DNA from: Paludisphaera rhizosphaerae
Lineage (GTDB): Bacteria > Planctomycetota > Planctomycetia > Isosphaerales > Isosphaeraceae
Direction of reading: 5' to 3'
DNA: 64,000 nucleotides
Assembly: GCF_011065895.1 (NCBI RefSeq)
Contig: NZ_JAALCR010000002.1
Location: 372,001 to 436,000 of the forward strand
Shown: in pieces, positions 2,732 to 53,289 of the stretch
Layout of the letters: the number at the start of each line of letters is the position of its first letter
Position numbering within the stretch: position 1 is the stretch's first letter
The notes under the pieces: generated by a model
What the model saw: the letters and a program-made list of their open reading frames with translations, nothing else
Database searches by the model: none
What the model was told of the DNA's origin: nothing
Position numbers and translations under genes: made by a program

Positions 2732-4507
2732 ATGACCGCAATCCTTCCCACCATCCCGGCGAGGTCGTCGGATCACCGGATGTTCAAGCCCCCCGAATGG
2801 ACCTTCGTGCGGGCCGGCGACGTCGGCTGGTGGCTCCAGGGCCGCTGGCGCGACTCGTTGCTCGACGCCGACGGGCTGAGGCTGGAGCAGTGGCGCAGCG
2901 AGGGCCGGCTTGAGATCGTGAAAGAAGGACCGCATCGCGTCGTCTATCGCGTGCAGCTTCCGGATACCGCGGTCTACATCAAGCACTACCTCGTTCCCGA
3001 TCGACGCGCCAAGTATCGCCAGTGGTTTCGGCGGGGGAAGGGCCGCAACGAAGGCAAGCGATCCTCGCAACTCGCCTCGATCGGCGTGCCGACGATCTCG
3101 CCGATCGCGCTCGGTGAACGCCGCCGTCGTGGCTTCCTGTTCGATAACTTCCTGATTACGCGCGAGATCCAGGACGCGCCGCCACTGGACGACTTCGTGG
3201 AGCAGGAGTTGCCCAACCTGCCGGAGCCGCGACGTTCCCGCCTCCGTCATCGGCTCGCGAAGGCCATGGGGATCCTCACCGCGAAGCTCCACAACGCGGG
3301 CCTGCTGCACATCGACTTCCACCCCGGCAATATTCTGGTGCGGCTTGGACCCGGCGACGAACCCCAACTCACGATGATCGATCTGGACGCGCTCCGGACG
3401 TCCAAGAAGCTGAGCTGGCCTCAGGCCCAACGCAACCTCGCGCTCCTCGACCACTACTTCTGGACGCGAAGCACCCGCGTCGACCGGAACCGATTTCTCA
3501 AGGCGTATCTCCAGGCTCGCGAGGGCGCTCCGGACTCCGTTCGCGACTTCGCCGTCGGCGTCGAGACCGCAACCCGGCGCTGGGCGGAGCGGCTCTGGCG
3601 ACGTTGGGGAAAGCGTTGCCGGTCCACGAACAAATACTTCTACGTCTCCAAGTCGAACAACGCCCTTTGCATCGCCTCGCGCGACCTCGACCCATCGGAG
3701 GTCGCCCCACTGCTGGTCGATCCCGACGCGGCGTTCAACGCTCCGGGGGTGAAGGTCATCAAGGATTCTCGGACGACCCGGCTGATCGAAGCGACGATGA
3801 TCGTCAACGGCAAGCCGACGCCCGTCGTCTTCAAGAGGTTCAATCGCAAGAAGTGGATCGACCCCGTGCTGGCCATTTTCAGGCCGTCGCGTGCCTGGCG
3901 CTCCTGGCAAGCCGGCCAGCACCTCTCCGCTCGCGGCATCCCCACGCCTCAGAACCTGGCGTTCGTTGCGAGGCGTCGTAAGCCCTGGTTCTCGCCGTTC
4001 CAGGGGGTGCTGCCGCACGAGACCTACCTGATTACAGTCGAGCAACTCAACGCGTCGACCCTCTCCGAGCACGTCTACGAGGTCTTGCCGGAGTTGGAGG
4101 GAGATGCGCTGCACGCGGAGATCGAGAGACTGACCCAGGCGCTGGCGTCGCTGGTTCGGCTGCTCCACGATCGATCGCTCTCGCACCGTGATCTAAAGGC
4201 TTCCAACATTTTGATCCGCCGCGACGCCGAGCCGGGCGAGAGCATCCTCTCGCTCATCGATCTCGTCGGAGTGCGACTAAAGGCTCCGTTGCCGATGCAC
4301 CGTCGCGTGCAGAACCTGGCGCGGCTCAGCGTCAGCCTGGCGGACGCTCCCGGTCGAACTCGCACGGCGTCGCTCCGCTTCCTTCGGGCTTACTTGCCGC
4401 ATCGCCTTCAACAGACCGACGAATGGAAGGCCCTTTGGCGGGCCGTCGAGGCAGCCTCGTACACGAAGAAGGCCCGTAATCGCCGCCGCGGTCGACCGTT
4501 GTCTTGA
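2732..4507 (+). CDS. Tandem lipopolysaccharide-kinase-like protein (two Kdo/WaaP-type kinase domains)
   Basis: 591 residues holding two complete kinase-like units. The first (about 60-300) has a VYIKHY lysine near residue 83, the catalytic loop HIDFHPGNIL near 193, and the metal-binding IDLDAL near 216. The second (about 345-575) has VVFKRF as its lysine motif, the catalytic loop HRDLKASNIL near 484, and IDLVG near 509. The loops resemble the Kdo kinase/WaaP/RIO-like families that phosphorylate sugars of lipid A-core, rather than eukaryotic protein kinases. WaaP-type enzymes normally have one domain and about 240-270 residues, so this is a duplication or fusion. In the second unit the metal-binding DxD/DFG position is DLV, so it may be weaker or specialised. 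It follows the glycosyltransferase directly. Phosphorylation of a surface glycan is an inference. Confidence 0.85.
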   Translation: MTAILPTIPARSSDHRMFKPPEWTFVRAGDVGWWLQGRWRDSLLDADGLRLEQWRSEGRLEIVKEGPHRVVYRVQLPDTAVYIKHYLVPDRRAKYRQWFRRGKGRNEGKRSSQLASIGVPTISPIALGERRRRGFLFDNFLITREIQDAPPLDDFVEQELPNLPEPRRSRLRHRLAKAMGILTAKLHNAGLLHIDFHPGNILVRLGPGDEPQLTMIDLDALRTSKKLSWPQAQRNLALLDHYFWTRSTRVDRNRFLKAYLQAREGAPDSVRDFAVGVETATRRWAERLWRRWGKRCRSTNKYFYVSKSNNALCIASRDLDPSEVAPLLVDPDAAFNAPGVKVIKDSRTTRLIEATMIVNGKPTPVVFKRFNRKKWIDPVLAIFRPSRAWRSWQAGQHLSARGIPTPQNLAFVARRRKPWFSPFQGVLPHETYLITVEQLNASTLSEHVYEVLPELEGDALHAEIERLTQALASLVRLLHDRSLSHRDLKASNILIRRDAEPGESILSLIDLVGVRLKAPLPMHRRVQNLARLSVSLADAPGRTRTASLRFLRAYLPHRLQQTDEWKALWRAVEAASYTKKARNRRRGRPLS

Positions 4508-4534
4508 ACGGTCTCCCTGGAGGAAGGATTCTCC

Positions 4535-5488
4535 ATGCTCACACGCCCTGAGATCCTCCGGCGGCCCCTGCGCCTCGTCTGGCTGGCGTTGCTTCTGGCC
4601 GCGAGCGGTTGCTCCACGATCGCGAAACGGGAGCCCTCGCTGCTGCCGACGGCCTATGAACTCAAAACCGGCCCGTTCGTCGTCCATTCCAACGAGGCGA
4701 TGAAATCCGACGTCCCCGCCGTGCAGGCTCTCGAACAGCTTCGAGGCGATCTCGCGAAGCGTTTGAAGGGGAGCCAGGGCGAAGCCGAGGACAAGGGGCC
4801 CATCGAGGTCTACGTTCTCGACGACCGCAGCTCATTCCTCCATCTGCTTCGGTTTTACTTCCCCGAGTTACCGCCGCGCAGGGCGTTCTTCCTGGCCCAG
4901 GGAGACGAGCGGATCGTCTACACGTACCAGGGCCCGATGCTCGAAGAGGACCTACGACACGAGGCGGCCCACGCTCTGCTCCGAGGGCGCTTCGGCGACA
5001 TCCCCCTCTGGCTTGACGAGGGGCTCGCCGAGTATTTCGAGGTCGGTCCTGACGACGTGCACGACCGCGAGTCCCGATTAGCCAAGCTGGAGGCGGACCG
5101 CAAGGCTGGGTGGAAGCCCGATCTCGCCCGCCTGGAAGGTCTCGCCGAGGTCCACGAGATGAAACCGCGCGACTACCGCGAGGCCTGGGCCTGGGTCGAT
5201 CTGATGCTTTCCGACTCAGGTCCGGGATCAGCGGTTCTGGTGGACTATCTGAGCGTTCCGAGCGACCGTCGATCGTTGGCTGATCGCCTCGAATCTCGAG
5301 GGATGAACGGTGAGTCGCTGCTCGCCCACATGGACGGGCGACCTCTCAAGCTCATTGCACGGAAGCCGGCGGATCGCCCGGATCGAGCCGTGCGGATGCA
5401 GGATCGGGATCTCGAAATTCCTCGTCGGCTTCAAGAACCGAGGCGGCCGAGTTTCCTCCGCCGCCTCGGCGAATTCCTGGGCTTCTGA
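4535..5488 (+). CDS. DUF1570-like lipoprotein with gluzincin metalloprotease motif
   Basis: 317 residues. The N-terminus is a lipoprotein signal (basic start, Leu-rich core, lipobox LAASGC), so the mature protein is probably anchored to a membrane. A zinc-protease motif HEAAH lies near residue 142, followed about 20 residues later by DEGLAEYF, the downstream Glu ligand of gluzincins. This arrangement is typical of DUF1570 proteins, common in planctomycetes and of unknown substrate. Start chosen on the strong GGAGGAAGG site. It lies 27 bases after the kinase gene and is probably the last gene of that operon, which suggests a shared envelope role. Confidence 0.8.
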   Translation: MLTRPEILRRPLRLVWLALLLAASGCSTIAKREPSLLPTAYELKTGPFVVHSNEAMKSDVPAVQALEQLRGDLAKRLKGSQGEAEDKGPIEVYVLDDRSSFLHLLRFYFPELPPRRAFFLAQGDERIVYTYQGPMLEEDLRHEAAHALLRGRFGDIPLWLDEGLAEYFEVGPDDVHDRESRLAKLEADRKAGWKPDLARLEGLAEVHEMKPRDYREAWAWVDLMLSDSGPGSAVLVDYLSVPSDRRSLADRLESRGMNGESLLAHMDGRPLKLIARKPADRPDRAVRMQDRDLEIPRRLQEPRRPSFLRRLGEFLGF

Positions 5489-5492
5489 CGGC

Positions 5493-5858
5493 TCAGTGCG
5501 ACTTCTCCTCGATCGGGATCGTGTTGATCTTGGCCGCGAGGATGAAGTCGTTCTCGGTCAGGCCGCCGACGGCGTGGGTCGTGATCTCAACGGCCACGTT
5601 GCGGTACCCGGCGAGGTGCAGGTCGGGATGATGGCCCTCGTCCTCGGCCAGCTCGCCGACCTTGTCGAAGAATCGGAGGCCCGCGACGAAGTTGCGCGCG
5701 CGCCACTCGCGACGAATCCGCTTTCCGTCCGCGCTGAGAGTCCAGCCCGGCACGGTTTGGAGCAATTCAGCAACGTCTCCCTGTGCGAGCGGAGGGACCC
5801 CACCCTCGCACGGGATGCATTTCTTGGTGGTCAGGTCGGTCAGGGTTGGCGTGCTCAT
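5493..5858 (-). CDS. Pterin-4a-carbinolamine dehydratase
   Basis: 121 residues, full length for the family. It removes water from 4a-hydroxytetrahydrobiopterin-type carbinolamines to recycle pterin cofactors after aromatic amino acid hydroxylation. The active-site signature is intact: EGHHPDLHLAGYRNV, then a later TH in ITTHAVGGLTENDF. The start at 5858 is preceded by AGGGGAG; an upstream in-frame ATG at 5906 would add 16 atypical residues. No aromatic amino acid hydroxylase is nearby, so a role in other pterin metabolism or a non-enzymatic role is possible. Its end is 4 bases from the end of the convergent lipoprotein gene. Confidence 0.92.
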   Translation of the reverse strand: MSTPTLTDLTTKKCIPCEGGVPPLAQGDVAELLQTVPGWTLSADGKRIRREWRARNFVAGLRFFDKVGELAEDEGHHPDLHLAGYRNVAVEITTHAVGGLTENDFILAAKINTIPIEEKSH

Positions 5859-5932
5859 GGTGAGACTCCCCTGGTGGCGATGGTTCGACCCGGCGAAACT
5901 AAGCATGCGAACGCCGCGCCAGGCGCGAAGCC

Positions 5933-6733
5933 TCAGTGAAAACTCTCGGAATCGCCCGGGAATTCGCCCGAGCGGACGTCGGCGACGTACCGAGCTGCGG
6001 CCCCCTGCATTAGTTCGCCGATTTCAGCATACCTCCGCGCGAACCTGGGCCGAAAGCCCTCGATCAGCCCGAACATGTCGTGAACGACAAGGACCTGACC
6101 GTCGCAACCGGGGCCTGCACCGATGCCGATGGTCGGAATCGGGATCTCAGCGGTGATCGTCTCCGCCAGCGGGGCCGGAACGCATTCGAGGACGACGGCG
6201 AACGCGCCGGCCTCGACGATCGCCTGGGCGTCCGCCCGGATCGCGTCCACCTGACGCTGGACCTTGAACCCGCCGAACTTGCGGACGGATTGCGGCGTCA
6301 GGCCGAGGTGAGCCATGACGGGAATCTCCGCGTCGACGACGGCCCGGATCGTCGCCGCCGATCGCCGGCCCCCCTCCAGCTTGACGGCCTGGCAGCGCGT
6401 TTCTTTGAGAATGCGGCCGGCGGAACGGATCGCATCAGCGTGCGAGGTCTGGTAGCTGAGAAAGGGAAGATCGGCCACCACGAAGGCTCGCTTGGCCGCC
6501 CGGGCGACCATCTCCGCATGGTAGACCATCTGATCGAGCGTCACGCCGAGCGTCGTCTCACGCCCCTGGACGGTGGTTCCCAGCGAATCGCCGACGAGGA
6601 GGCAGTCGACGCCGGCGGCGTCCAGCCATCGGGCCGTGGGAAAGTCGTAAGCGGTCAGGCTGGTGATCTTCCGACCCTGCTTCTTCCAGGCGCCGAAATC
6701 CAGAACGGTCACGGGGCGGTCTTCACTGGCCAT
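5933..6733 (-). CDS. panB: 3-methyl-2-oxobutanoate hydroxymethyltransferase (ketopantoate synthesis)
   Basis: 266 residues, matching the usual PanB length of about 263. It transfers a hydroxymethyl group from methylene-tetrahydrofolate to 2-oxoisovalerate, the first committed step to pantothenate and CoA. Conserved features are the TAYDFPTARWLDAAG start, the VGDSLGTTVQG metal site, KLEGG in the middle and MAHLGLTPQS. The ATG at 6733 is preferred; a TTG at 6757 would add eight residues without a ribosome-binding site. The start overlaps the end of the upstream membrane glycosyltransferase gene by 11 bases, so the two are probably translated together although their functions look unrelated. No panC or panD lies in the window. 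Confidence 0.95.
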   Translation of the reverse strand: MASEDRPVTVLDFGAWKKQGRKITSLTAYDFPTARWLDAAGVDCLLVGDSLGTTVQGRETTLGVTLDQMVYHAEMVARAAKRAFVVADLPFLSYQTSHADAIRSAGRILKETRCQAVKLEGGRRSAATIRAVVDAEIPVMAHLGLTPQSVRKFGGFKVQRQVDAIRADAQAIVEAGAFAVVLECVPAPLAETITAEIPIPTIGIGAGPGCDGQVLVVHDMFGLIEGFRPRFARRYAEIGELMQGAAARYVADVRSGEFPGDSESFH

Positions 6734-49166: not shown

Positions 49167-49667
49167 ATGACCGCAGGCACGCACGATTCGCGACTGACGA
49201 CGGCCGATTTCATGGCGTTCACAATCGGGGCCGCCTTCGCCCTGCTGCACCTGAAACGAGCGTTGGGACCGGACGTCTCCACGCCGGGTCTGATCGTGGG
49301 TTCTCTGGCTTTCCTCTGGTTGACCGCCACCACCGCCGGGCCCTTCGTCGTGCTCTTCCGACGGATGGCCGGCGTTGAATCCGAGGGTCCAACGGTCGGC
49401 GACCGCCTGTGGCTGGTGCTTGGCGCGCCCTGGATCCTCAGTTCGCTGTTCGCCTGGTTGCAATCGGGATTCCCCGCGATCGTCCTGGCCGTGGGGGTGG
49501 CCGAAGCCTGCCTGCTGGCGATGATCGAAGTCTGGCGACGCTGGATCTCCGTCTCGGCGGAGGAGGCGAAGGTCGCCTTCAGCGGCGCCTGGACGAACCG
49601 CTTCGGAATGATCCTGGCGATCGCCTGGCCCGTCCAGATTGCGTTGTTGCTGATCGCGTCGACGTAG
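49167..49667 (+). CDS. Small integral membrane protein of unknown function
   Basis: 166 residues with about four hydrophobic segments (near 14-30, 41-62, 82-112 and 147-165) and short charged loops such as RRMAGVESEGPTVGDRLW. No signal peptide, enzyme motif or known domain is recognised. It is divergent from der, ends 3 bases from the convergent GH57-like gene, and has no evident partner. Natural membrane-protein composition supports it as a real gene. Confidence 0.7.
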   Translation: MTAGTHDSRLTTADFMAFTIGAAFALLHLKRALGPDVSTPGLIVGSLAFLWLTATTAGPFVVLFRRMAGVESEGPTVGDRLWLVLGAPWILSSLFAWLQSGFPAIVLAVGVAEACLLAMIEVWRRWISVSAEEAKVAFSGAWTNRFGMILAIAWPVQIALLLIAST

Positions 49668-49670
49668 CGA

Positions 49671-51029
49671 TCACGCTCGCGCGGCGGCATTCAGATCGAC
49701 GTCCGGAAGGAACTCGGGCCCCTTCGGCGTCACAACTCGGTCGGGTCGACCCGACATCAGCGCGGCGGCCAGTTCATAGAACCGTGAGAGATGGGCCGAA
49801 GCCCGTCGCAGCCCCTCGTCGGGATCAATCGCTCCGTGCAGAGGGTACGACCAGTCGAGTTGCTGGGCGCGGAGAAGGCAACGGAGCATCTCGGCAGCGG
49901 TCTGCTTCTCCCTCTCCGACATGGAGCCGCGACGATCGAGGGCGAATGCGAGCAGGTCCGAAGCTGCGCGGCAACGGTCGAAGAGGTCGGAGCCAGCCGG
50001 ACGGGCCGCGAGGAATCCGCCGGCCGTTGCGCCGGGGCGGCCCATCACGCCGACCGGGTTGCGGGCCAGATAGCGGTCGAGCGACGCTCCGCAGGCGGTA
50101 TCGAGTCGCGACAGTTGATTCAGCAGGGTCGCCAGCCACAGGGCGCCCCCTCCGGCAGGCCAGGCCCTCGCCAGGTCGACGGCCGAGAAGGCGACGGCCG
50201 TCAGACGTTCGTCGGCGAACTCGGCGTCGTCCGGAACGGCGTAGCACTGCTCGATCCAGCGGTTCAGGAAGTGTTCCGCATGATCGCTGGCGGCTCGCGG
50301 GGCTAGCTTCGGATCGGCGTAGCGTGCGTCGAGCCCGTACCCGACGCCGGCGTCGAAGGCGTGAGCGGTAGGCTCGGTCGAGACGGCGAACGCCGCCACG
50401 CCGACCGGCGTGATCATGGGCGCGGCCGTCCGCAAGGGCGGCAGGACGGTCCCCCTGAGGAAAGCGTCGGCGGGAACCCCGAAGTATCGCAGGCCGTTCG
50501 CAGCCAGCGTTCCTTCGATTCCGGCCGCATAACTCAGCGAGGGGAGCCAGATCCCCGAGGGGCGCGTTTCCAAACGGCGGGCGTGATCCTCAACCGCCAG
50601 GCCGACCTGGGATTGAATCAGAATCCGCTCGGAGGCGAGGCTGGGAATCCACGTGTGAGTGGCCGTCGTCGGGATCACCTCGATCGCGCCCGAGCCGCTC
50701 CAACGACGGAGCAGGCTCAGCGCGTCGCCGCCTCCTGTGGAGGCGAAGAACCGATGGAGATCACGGTCGAGCCGACCGTCGCCGGCTCGTCGCGCCATCT
50801 CGCGCCTGACCATTTCACGAGCGGTCGCGTCGGCGGCCTGGGCCGTCCAGCTCGGGCTGACCGCCAGGGTGATCGAGGCGCCTCCGGAATGTTCGACGAA
50901 GTCGTTGACGGCGTGGAGAACCGGCCAGAAGACGCCCACGGCGGAGTCAGCCCAGTCCCGGCCGACGCCTCGGCCGGGAGCGGGGAGCGGGTGGTGGAGT
51001 TCCAGGACCAGGGCCAGGCAGGGCGTCAC
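49671..51029 (-). CDS. GH57-like protein that lacks the catalytic residues (putative pseudoenzyme)
   Basis: 452 residues with the layout of GH57 alpha-glucan enzymes/branching enzymes. The N-terminal strand is LALVLELHHPLPAPG. The central GIWLPSLSYAAGIEGTLAANGLRYFGV matches the GH57 motif normally written GxWLPECxYxPGL. The later AFSAVDLARAWPAGG corresponds to the region normally reading FDxELFGHWWFEGP. In the first, the nucleophile Glu of WLPE is Ser; in the second, the Asp of FD is Ser and the HWW is absent. Catalysis as in GH57 is therefore unlikely. It lies 42 bases after the GT/DUF4912 gene on the same strand and probably shares its transcript. Confidence 0.78.
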   Translation of the reverse strand: MTPCLALVLELHHPLPAPGRGVGRDWADSAVGVFWPVLHAVNDFVEHSGGASITLAVSPSWTAQAADATAREMVRREMARRAGDGRLDRDLHRFFASTGGGDALSLLRRWSGSGAIEVIPTTATHTWIPSLASERILIQSQVGLAVEDHARRLETRPSGIWLPSLSYAAGIEGTLAANGLRYFGVPADAFLRGTVLPPLRTAAPMITPVGVAAFAVSTEPTAHAFDAGVGYGLDARYADPKLAPRAASDHAEHFLNRWIEQCYAVPDDAEFADERLTAVAFSAVDLARAWPAGGGALWLATLLNQLSRLDTACGASLDRYLARNPVGVMGRPGATAGGFLAARPAGSDLFDRCRAASDLLAFALDRRGSMSEREKQTAAEMLRCLLRAQQLDWSYPLHGAIDPDEGLRRASAHLSRFYELAAALMSGRPDRVVTPKGPEFLPDVDLNAAARA

Positions 51030-51071
51030 CGTTCTTGTTCCTCGGAGGCGTCGCGAGAGTCTTGAGGTCGT

Positions 51072-52568
51072 TCAGACGACGGGACGTCTGGGGGCGACCC
51101 TGAGCCGCCGCGGATGGATTGCGGGGGCATGCCCCTCGCGCGGGAGATGGCAGATCCGGGCGTGGGTCAGCGGATGGAAGTAGCCCCATCGCGACCGTAC
51201 GCCCAGACAGGCTGCGATCGACCTTCCGTCGAACGGCAATGCGATCGTGCGATGCGTTTCGGACAGGCTCACGTCCACGTCCGACGTGTTGTGGGCGTTC
51301 AGCCCGTCGAAGGCCGTGTCGGTCACGTCGAAGAGCCGAATCGTCAATACGGCTCGCGGCGCCTCCGGTCCCAGCCACTCCAGCGCCGACCGCCAGTCGT
51401 CGGGGCGAACCGTCCAGGAGGCTTCCGCCTCACGGCTGGAAATCGGAGTCAGGGCCAACCGGGATCGAAGTTCCGGAAACGCGATCGGCGTTGAACCTGT
51501 CCCAGCCCGCCGAATCCGGCCGTCGCCGGCTTCGGGCCCGTTCCGCCGGGCGTCGATCAGCCGCATGTACGACCGGAGCCATTGCAGGGCGACGCCCTCG
51601 GGATCGCTCGAGCGAGCCTCCACGGCCGATGCGAGTCGGACGTCCTCCTCGCGACGGTCCCTATCGAAGAGGGCGTCGAGAATGTCGCGGGCCAGGGATT
51701 CGGGGGTCCGTCCCGCGACGCGAATTACAGGCGCGCCCAAAAGGCACGCCGCCCGAGCGACGGGGTCGTCGATCGCGTTCGTGGAGCCGACGCCGACGAC
51801 GGCCGCCTCCGAGACGGCCGCGTTCCAACGTCCGATCGCCGGCAGTCGAGTTCCTCCCCATTCCGTCGAGAGGAGTCCCTCGCCCTTGAGCCGACGCCGC
51901 AGTCGATCCCAGCGCGGATCCGCACCGAAAACCGCTGCCACGAGCCCGGGGGACTTCTCCCGCGCCGACTTCACTCCATCCAGGATCGTTCGAGAGCAGC
52001 GCCGCGCGTCGTGAGACATGACGAAGACGGCGCAAGAGCCTTCCTCGGGAGCGTCTCGCGGACCTTCACGGTCGAGCCAATGTGCAAGGCCCTCCTGGGA
52101 GAGAACCGTGACGATGCGGCCTGCGTTCGGGCCGATTCGCGTCCGGAGCCGTTCGGCCCCCCAGGGGTGATCGCAGAACCAGGCGTCGGGCGCCGACAGC
52201 GGTCCGAATCCAGGGTTCTCCGCCTCCTCGCCCTCGGCCCGGTCCGAGGCGATGACGACCGCTCGGCCGCCGCCGCGCGTGGCCAGTTCGCCGGCCGCCG
52301 GCCTGGCCTTCGGGTCCAGGGCGTGGATCACGTCGAAGTCGTAGCTCAGGCCCGCGTTGCTCGCCGCCCGAACCACGCCGACGCCGAACGAGGTCGGCTC
52401 GTCGCCGCCGATCTCATGGGGGCAGCGCACTTCCAGCCAGCCGGGATGCGCCTCGCGCTCGGCCTCGTCTGGGAACCATCGGGTCAGGGCGACGAGGTCG
52501 ACCCCCGGCCGGGCGATCGCGGAGACCGCCGCGCGGTCGAGGTCCCACCCGATCAGGGCGATCCGCAT
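51072..52568 (-). CDS. Glycosyltransferase-like protein fused to a DUF4912 domain
   Basis: 498 residues. The N-terminal ~340 residues look like a GT-B/GT4-type glycosyltransferase: MRIALIGWDLDRAAVS, YDFDVIHALDPKARPAAG and a C-terminal sugar-nucleotide part with GAPVIRVAGRTPESLARDIL. The donor-site motif is poorly conserved, so activity is uncertain. The last ~120 residues match DUF4912: DWRSALEWLGPEAPRAVLTIRLFDVTDTAFDG, then LPFDGRSIAACLGVRSRWGYFHPLTHARIC. DUF4912 occurs in other bacteria beside GH57 and starch/glycogen-type genes, and here the next gene is GH57-like. The ATG at 52568 begins exactly at the Rossmann strand and is preferred over 52595. Confidence 0.78.
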   Translation of the reverse strand: MRIALIGWDLDRAAVSAIARPGVDLVALTRWFPDEAEREAHPGWLEVRCPHEIGGDEPTSFGVGVVRAASNAGLSYDFDVIHALDPKARPAAGELATRGGGRAVVIASDRAEGEEAENPGFGPLSAPDAWFCDHPWGAERLRTRIGPNAGRIVTVLSQEGLAHWLDREGPRDAPEEGSCAVFVMSHDARRCSRTILDGVKSAREKSPGLVAAVFGADPRWDRLRRRLKGEGLLSTEWGGTRLPAIGRWNAAVSEAAVVGVGSTNAIDDPVARAACLLGAPVIRVAGRTPESLARDILDALFDRDRREEDVRLASAVEARSSDPEGVALQWLRSYMRLIDARRNGPEAGDGRIRRAGTGSTPIAFPELRSRLALTPISSREAEASWTVRPDDWRSALEWLGPEAPRAVLTIRLFDVTDTAFDGLNAHNTSDVDVSLSETHRTIALPFDGRSIAACLGVRSRWGYFHPLTHARICHLPREGHAPAIHPRRLRVAPRRPVV

Positions 52569-53289
52569 CAGCGACCTTCCTCCCCACGTGCTCATTCCCA
52601 GGTGCGCAAGGCCATCCCTCGATGACGCTCCATTTCACTGCGAACTATATCACGCGCGGGGGTCTGGCGAGCCTTTTCCCAAGCCGCACTCCATCCCGAT
52701 CACGGAGAACGCGCCGGTTGAAACGATTGTGCGGGCTCTGAAATTCGACCTCGGAATTGGTCGTAAAATCTTGAATGAGAGGCTGTGCATTCTTTCTCAA
52801 TTCGACGCGCATCGAAGTCAGGCGGACGTCGGAATCGACATCGACGTTCCGCGAAACCGACATTCCTCGCTCGTGTCCGGCATCCGCCTGAAGCCAGATC
52901 TGGCCTAACGGTTGGAATCAGGGACCAGGGACGCGCCTGCGGAGCCATACGATGGGCGACGGTTGCTCGGGCTCCCACACCGGTTCATGGCACTTAAGCG
53001 TGGCCATGGCACCCGGATGAGGCATCCTTCGCAAAGTATGGCGGAAATGCGGACGAACGAAGCCAAAGCCGGCGTCGTTAAAGCCAGCATGGATTGGGCT
53101 TTGCGCCGCCCGATGGCTCTGGCTTCCGTCGCAAACGAAGCCGCCGCGGCGGTTAACGCCCTGCTCGACCAGGTCTGTCTTCGGATCGCCCTGGCGGTCG
53201 GTGACCGGTGCGGTTCGATCCTGGCAGCCGAGGGGGATTCTCGCCGATCGAAGCCAAATCGCTGGCGTTCCCAAGTCGAACGCCCGCAG
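52569..53289. other. Long non-coding stretch with small inverted repeats
   Basis: About 720 bases without a gene that I can support. Open frames on both strands are Arg/Ser-rich, have no ribosome-binding site and overlap one another. The first 330 bases are relatively AT-rich for this genome and should hold the promoter of the GT/DUF4912 gene; a TATAGT on the minus strand near 52645 is a candidate -10. The second half holds the hairpin at 52982-53013 and several short GCC-rich direct and inverted repeats (GAAGCCAAAGCC type). Confidence 0.55.
52982..53013. repeat. Imperfect inverted repeat (hairpin) in non-coding DNA
   Basis: GGTTCATGGC (52982-52991) and GCCATGGCACC (53003-53013) pair with one mismatch or bulge around the 11-base loop ACTTAAGCGTG. 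It resembles a dispersed repeat unit. No second copy is in this window. Confidence 0.45.

Follow-up and report, generated by a model that had tools for sequence, protein, structure and literature searches.

The 64,000-nucleotide stretch of the Paludisphaera rhizosphaerae genome analysed here (contig NZ_JAALCR010000002.1, positions 372,001 to 436,000; hereafter the window, position 1 being its first letter) carries two neighbouring genes on the minus strand. One encodes a relative of glycoside hydrolase family 57 (GH57); the other encodes a protein in which a glycosyltransferase (GT) domain of the GT-B type is fused to the domain DUF4912. The features of this pair, in window coordinates, are as follows.

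49671..51029, minus strand: gene for the predicted GH57-like pseudoenzyme, 452 amino acids, GTG start; AmyC/branching-enzyme fold, catalytic acids absent
50538..50540, minus strand: its codon 164 (Ser), at the catalytic nucleophile position (AmyC Glu185) in the alignment with AmyC
50184..50186, minus strand: its codon 282 (Ser), at the catalytic acid/base position (AmyC Asp349) in the same alignment
50019..50042, minus strand: its residues 330-337, the clade loop GRPGxSxG (here GRPGATAG), which replaces the SSWG loop with Trp402 of active enzymes
51030..51071, minus strand: intergenic gap of 42 nt (1 to 94 nt in orthologues, on the same strand)
51072..52568, minus strand: gene for the predicted pseudo-GT4/DUF4912 fusion protein, 498 amino acids; alternative ATG at 52595
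51543..52568, minus strand: GT-B domain, residues 1-342 of the fusion protein; nearest to a GT4 subfamily, but without the glycine loop (deleted), the GRxxxQKG Arg and the two EX7E Glu
51129..51464, minus strand: DUF4912 domain (Pfam), residues 369-480 of the fusion protein; keeps five residues invariant in 34 other DUF4912 rows

The GH57-like gene lies downstream of the fusion gene, and the gap and shared strand are consistent with a single transcript that would carry both. Translation of the fusion gene from the ATG at 52568 gives a product (MRIAL..GWD) whose start is common to the orthologues, in agreement with the end coordinate of the original prediction; the upstream ATG at 52595 would give 507 amino acids.

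The GH57-like protein retains the fold of its family, as the original prediction had held. The Pfam model Glyco_hydro_57 (PF03065) scores 33.8 bits against a cut-off of 21.2 (E 2.9e-8), over residues 100-183 only, and the branching-enzyme C-terminal domain, BE_C, gives a weak match of 18.7 bits, below its cut-off of 25. By sequence, the best solved relative is AmyC of T. maritima (2b5d, E 2.1e-22). The predicted structure has a mean predicted local distance difference test (pLDDT) score of 73.5 and a predicted template modelling (pTM) score of 0.81, its least certain stretches (residues 193-218 and 326-346) including remodelled loops. In a structure search with this model, GH57 branching enzymes rank first, 2b5d aligning with a template modelling (TM) score of 0.76, an E-value of 1.8e-14 and a root-mean-square deviation (rmsd) of 6.1. 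With its score above the family cut-off and its incomplete TIM-barrel, the protein falls within the GH57 fold and, judged from its sequence, descends from a GH57 glycogen branching enzyme.

The catalytic machinery of that ancestor is absent. In the alignment with 2b5d, AmyC Glu185 faces Ser164 (WLPS) and Asp349 faces Ser282 (FS), and the wider alignment bears out the proposal that both catalytic acids are missing. The comparison covered ten full-length copies of the clade to which the protein belongs and 31 relatives elsewhere in the phylum, where 140 of 392 genomes have a match; these relatives comprise 29 loci among the matches listed (own genome excluded) together with G053 and G039. Duplicate loci, a contig-end fragment of G026, a weak match in G010 and the three other GH57 genes of this genome were left out of the column count. 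All 31 relatives have Glu at the nucleophile and Asp at the acid/base position, and none of the ten clade copies has either acid at either position. The nucleophile column holds Phe in eight copies, His in one and Ser in one, the Ser being confined to this species, and the acid/base column holds Ser in eight, Pro in one and Ala in one. Conservation of the serines in orthologues, raised by the original prediction, is thus found at the acid/base position but not at the nucleophile position. The protein has neither of the acids that characterize a GH57 branching enzyme, the nucleophile Glu of the WLPE region and the acid/base Asp of the PYDAELFGHWW region.

The surrounding cleft is altered as well. 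The roles of AmyC active-site residues used here, including that of Phe261, follow Table 1 of PMC6616209, in which His10 is given as the polariser and Trp29, Trp402 and Trp411 as aromatic gatekeepers. Only Trp29 of these four is retained (Trp26 here, 10/10). His10 is replaced by Glu10 in nine of the ten clade copies; the column of Trp402 holds Gly in all ten (phmmer pairs Trp402 with Ala334 instead, neither being Trp); and Trp411 and Phe261 fall in deletions, that of Trp411 being common to all ten. The His and first Trp of the GHWW motif are kept in no copy, the second Trp in nine. Residues that persist include His12 and Asp392-Trp393 (each 10/10), Asp67, and core glycines and prolines. In the 31 active enzymes, 113 columns reach an identity of 93% or more; 33 of these are retained by nine or ten of the dead copies and 49 by none; for the 65 columns identical in all 31, the corresponding numbers are 21 (at least nine copies) and 27. 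The alignments thus place the losses far beyond the two catalytic residues. Set beside the GH57 glycogen branching enzymes (AmyC, 2b5d; Thermus TT1467, 3p0b), the protein shares the fold, many core residues and the weak BE_C match but has lost the two catalytic residues and the polariser His together with two tryptophans of the cleft; it also lacks, like most copies, a stretch of about 45 residues following residue 238. Naming by family alone would label its gene a branching enzyme.

In a tree of GH57 proteins, the dead clade forms one side of a branch with support of 100/100, which measures about 2.4 changes per column and is divided by the midpoint root into 1.15 and 1.23; twelve rows of this tree deviate in composition and two have long branches. 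We infer that the active state is ancestral to the dead clade, a direction that a midpoint-rooted tree does not establish by itself.

The partner's GT domain had been described as a GT-B domain of doubtful activity, and both parts of that description are supported. The first 360 residues of the 498-residue protein have no match in Pfam, NCBIfam or, by sequence, the PDB, and the predicted structure is of modest confidence (pLDDT 65, pTM 0.41). Foldseek matches the model to MshA (3c48) with an E-value of 5.9e-13, a probability of 1.00 and a TM score of 0.30, and structural alignment of residues 1-342 gives Z 17.9 and rmsd 8.5 with MshA, and Z 16.1 and rmsd 14.8 with the glycogen synthase of Pyrococcus (3l01). 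The large rmsd values and low TM score fit an unreliable placement of the two GT-B halves in the model. By profile comparison, the domain groups with a GT4 subfamily found in other planctomycetes (E 2.8e-13, 98% probability over 329 columns with two GT4 rows; 96.8% with six others). Because fusions of GH57 with GT5 exist in the phylum, an origin from a GT5 glycogen synthase was also considered; it was rejected, four GT5 domains giving a probability of 2.6% over 59 columns against 98% over 329 for GT4.

Retaining transferases of the GT4/GT-B type are marked by a glycine loop, an Arg/Lys phosphate-binding pair and an EX7E motif. In the nine orthologues compared, a 12-residue glycine loop is deleted throughout, and the column of Arg188, its Lys and both EX7E glutamates are kept in none; the Lys of GRxxxQKG is Arg in eight of the nine, and the GGPxE stretch is lost. 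Of 120 columns invariant in six GT4 relatives, picked for an intact EX7E with rows lacking a clear motif omitted, 67 are kept in none of the nine and 13 in all; every one of the nine retains Asp79, His82, Ala83 and Asp85 from the HAHD stretch of GT4. GT4 proteins of the L137/L151 type, MshA and the Pyrococcus enzyme have the GT-B fold in common with the 498-residue protein, which differs from them in lacking the glycine loop, the nucleotide-sugar motifs and EX7E and in being fused to DUF4912. In the closest GT4 relatives, in regions L137 (5356-6549, plus strand) and L138 (4887-6323, plus strand), EX7E is altered, so its loss may have begun earlier, and inactive transferases may be common in this GT4 subfamily; other members in the same phylum are intact. 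Regular clustering of the subfamily with GH57 was not found: among ten GT4 regions read, only L150 (G297:C194) also contains a GH57 match, which is on the opposite strand at a distance of about 4 kb. A separate observation concerns L152 (G384:C14), where two GT4 genes with identical scores (3955-5181, minus strand, and 5202-6428, plus strand) lie 20 nt apart on opposite strands and may represent an assembly palindrome.

The C-terminal part of the partner belongs to DUF4912 (PF16258; 42.6 bits against a cut-off of 29.4, E 8.7e-11). Each of the five residues invariant in the 34 other DUF4912 rows, which contain the same gene twice (L116/L135, L125/L128) as well as close relatives, is kept in nine or ten of the ten copies; of 24 columns conserved at 80% or more in DUF4912, ten are kept in at least nine copies and five in none. 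By the Pfam model, the domain is present in at least 148 of the 392 phylum genomes. Its reported tendency to travel with GH57 holds for about half of the 149 places listed outside this genome: in 76 of them, from 73 genomes, a branching-type GH57 match stands no more than 1.5 kb away, in six it is farther off on the same contig, and in 67 the contig has none. An earlier figure of 35 out of 52 places beside GH57 is superseded by 76 out of 149, since it came from a profile of the dead family, was biased and missed this genome's second DUF4912 gene. In twelve places, including L128:4583-7021, DUF4912 and GH57 share one frame of about 800 amino acids, with the DUF4912-first order confirmed by Pfam for L128. 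Single frames of 1054-1206 amino acids join a GH57 branching enzyme to a GT5 glycogen synthase in L132:2-3163, L133:4235-7852 and L135:1541-4708, all on the minus strand, and in L135 a Rho_N-DUF4912 gene lies directly upstream of the fusion. DUF4912 proteins beside or fused to GH57 share the domain and the five invariant residues with the partner, and linkage to GH57 occurs at about half of the listed places; in the present pair, by contrast, the domain is attached to a dead GT domain and is paired with a GH57 protein that is likewise dead. When the PDB was searched with a profile, no DUF4912 structure was returned; the matches were weak ones and GH57 chains, the latter because the profile had been built from entire proteins, including a GH57 fusion. 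Within the same class, DUF4912 often occurs where no branching-type GH57 is listed. Among the papers searched, one, on a cotton transcriptome, names DUF4912.

The two genes are conserved together, a point that the original prediction had asked to be checked. A profile search finds the GH57-like protein in 11 of 45 genomes of Isosphaeraceae: 6/6 in genus g1 (which includes Paludisphaera soli), 2/3 in g7 (which includes Aquisphaera insulae), 2/2 in g3 (one cut by a contig end) and 1/1 in g20 (G024). The G010 match mentioned above, the twelfth (20 bits), is a different GH57 gene and is not counted. The partner is full length in ten of the 11 genomes and in G024 is recognized through its DUF4912 part. 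Neither gene is found without the other among the 45 family genomes; weak partner matches in G009, G013, G016 and G030 (E 8e-7 to 4e-4), two of which cover the DUF4912 part and the other two short stretches, were not counted. All loci read agree in gene order and strand. A surA-type gene and der flank the pair in G000-G004 and G028, where topA is also nearby; none of these three was found next to it in the loci of G007 and G024.

Purifying selection acts on both genes. The ratio of nonsynonymous to synonymous substitution rates (dN/dS, Nei-Gojobori) is 0.23-0.34 for the GH57-like gene and 0.21-0.43 for its partner (six species pairs each, dS 0.5-1.2); the corresponding values, from five pairs each, are 0.33-0.37 in the surA-type neighbour and 0.15-0.22 in der. 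In addition, 42 columns of the GH57-like protein are conserved in at least nine of the ten dead copies and shared by at most three of the 31 active enzymes, examples being Glu10, His13, Trp61, Asp188, Asp226, Trp258, Asp285 and several positions of the GRPGxSxG loop.

These observations lead us to a tentative reading, held at slightly below an even chance, in which the pair is a conserved, non-catalytic two-protein scaffold or regulator derived from glucan enzymes. The sequences show that the two active sites have been taken apart, that the genes are inherited as a pair and that selection preserves them with new conserved residues. A GH57 glycogen branching enzyme would have given rise to the GH57-like protein, and a GT4 transferase fused to DUF4912 to its partner; the two products would bind each other through DUF4912 and the rebuilt GH57 surface, not through the old catalytic clefts. 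The complex would then have a scaffolding or regulatory role, most likely in the glucan metabolism that GlgA, GlgB and other GH57 proteins carry out, since the parts of the pair come from it. This genome encodes GlgA (563 bits), a GH13 branching enzyme GlgB (945 bits) and three other GH57 genes, two of them near glgA, so the cell is unlikely to rely on the dead pair as its synthase or branching enzyme. Several points weigh against this reading. The neighbours der, surA-type and topA give no hint of glucan, and the pair was not found in 34 of the 45 family genomes, in which glycogen metabolism would not need it. DUF4912 need not mean glucan, as it is common away from GH57: 37 of the 67 places without a branching-type GH57 on the contig are in genomes with no such GH57 listed, and this genome's second DUF4912 gene (L032:6691-7785, minus strand, 127.7 bits) lies on a contig without a GH57 match, which slightly lowers our confidence. 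Finally, acidic residues newly conserved around the rim of the former pocket may leave room for a new activity.

Among the other explanations, the one given most weight, though we consider it unlikely, is that the dead GH57 protein has kept alpha-glucan binding in the old cleft, which would make it resemble an internal carbohydrate-binding module, with DUF4912 adding a second glucan contact. The retained fold would allow this, as would the persistence of Trp26, His12 and Asp392-Trp393 in every copy and of the second GHWW Trp in nine. However, the replacement of the polariser by Glu, the Gly in the Trp402 column, the deletion of Trp411 and Phe261 and the loss of the His and first Trp of GHWW all argue the other way, and no DUF4912 structure came out of the PDB search. 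With 49 of the 113 conserved columns lost, two cleft tryptophans among them, glucan binding by the old cleft is doubtful, and less likely than the original prediction held. That prediction had proposed a glucan-binding or scaffolding pair; its first half is thereby weakened, while a scaffold or regulator would still be the best reading. Less probable again is a conversion of the GH57 barrel into a different enzyme, in which a new acidic pocket (Glu10, Asp188, Asp226 and Asp285, with His12/His13 and the GRPGxSxG loop) would carry a new ligand or reaction and the pseudo-GT4/DUF4912 protein would be its obligate partner. Each of the four acids is conserved in nine of the ten copies (column 285 being Asp or Glu in all ten), an acid stands at these positions in none of the 31 active enzymes, and, in a prediction of secondary structure only, residues 10, 188 and 285 fall at strand ends or directly behind them. 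Against such an enzyme, the G024 copy lacks Glu10, the G007 copy lacks both Asp188 and Asp226, and many of the remaining newly conserved positions hold Gly, Leu, Trp or Arg.

An enzymatic role for the partner, with its GT-B domain still an active transferase that uses unusual motifs, seems highly improbable to us. The HAHD residues kept in all nine orthologues speak for it, as do L137 and L138, in which EX7E is likewise altered, but the deletion of the glycine loop, the loss of the GRxxxQKG Arg (with Lys changed to Arg in eight) and of GGPxE, and the 67 of 120 invariant columns kept nowhere are hard to reconcile with it. We give hardly any credence to the idea that the genes are decaying remnants of a glucan module. 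The patchy distribution over 11 of the 45 family genomes is what decay might produce, but the complete copies have open frames down to 34-35% identity, and dN/dS values of 0.2-0.4 together with 42 new clade-specific conserved positions point to a repurposed protein, not to decay; the pseudogene reading was rejected on these two grounds.

Beside the pair, a small gene on the plus strand (window 49167-49667) converges with the GH57-like gene of the opposite strand, their ends lying 3 nt apart. The small gene encodes a fast-evolving protein, with 36-42% identity in five relatives, and has two tandem matches in L065 (Aquisphaera insulae).

Judged by its missing residues, the GH57 member of the pair is of an already known kind. 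A 2018 survey of GH57 lists 60 bacterial ‘GBE-like’ (glycogen branching enzyme-like) proteins without one or both catalytic residues and defers their analysis (PMC6037648); as a branching-enzyme relative lacking catalytic residues, the present protein fits the definition of that group. A search of the survey's main text for planctomycete names found none. GH57 gene counts of 4 for Paludisphaera borealis and 2 for Isosphaera pallida appear in a table whose column order we inferred (PMC5352709), and the passages of that paper on GH57 in Isosphaeraceae do not discuss missing catalytic residues. The GlgA-GlgB fusion of the chlamydial Criblamydiaceae and Waddliaceae, described as having an inactive branching domain, is likewise a case of a glycogen-enzyme domain without activity kept beside a pathway partner; there, the GlgB domain is part of one protein, whereas here the GH57 protein is accompanied by a separate, dead GT4-DUF4912 protein (PMC11046441). 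Our literature search gave, among the matches listed, no report of a GH57 pseudoenzyme with a dead GT4-DUF4912 partner.

Single glycoside hydrolases without catalytic residues are already known; in this case, a branching-enzyme relative and a transferase relative are both dead, together and across several genera. Both proteins probably do a non-enzymatic job, and the pair would then exemplify how metabolic enzymes can naturally take on a role outside catalysis. Should the GH57 barrel instead have been converted to a new ligand or reaction, glucan enzymes would have been turned into a new two-protein machine. The pair may also help in approaching DUF4912, a domain of unknown function often seen with GH57 branching enzymes.

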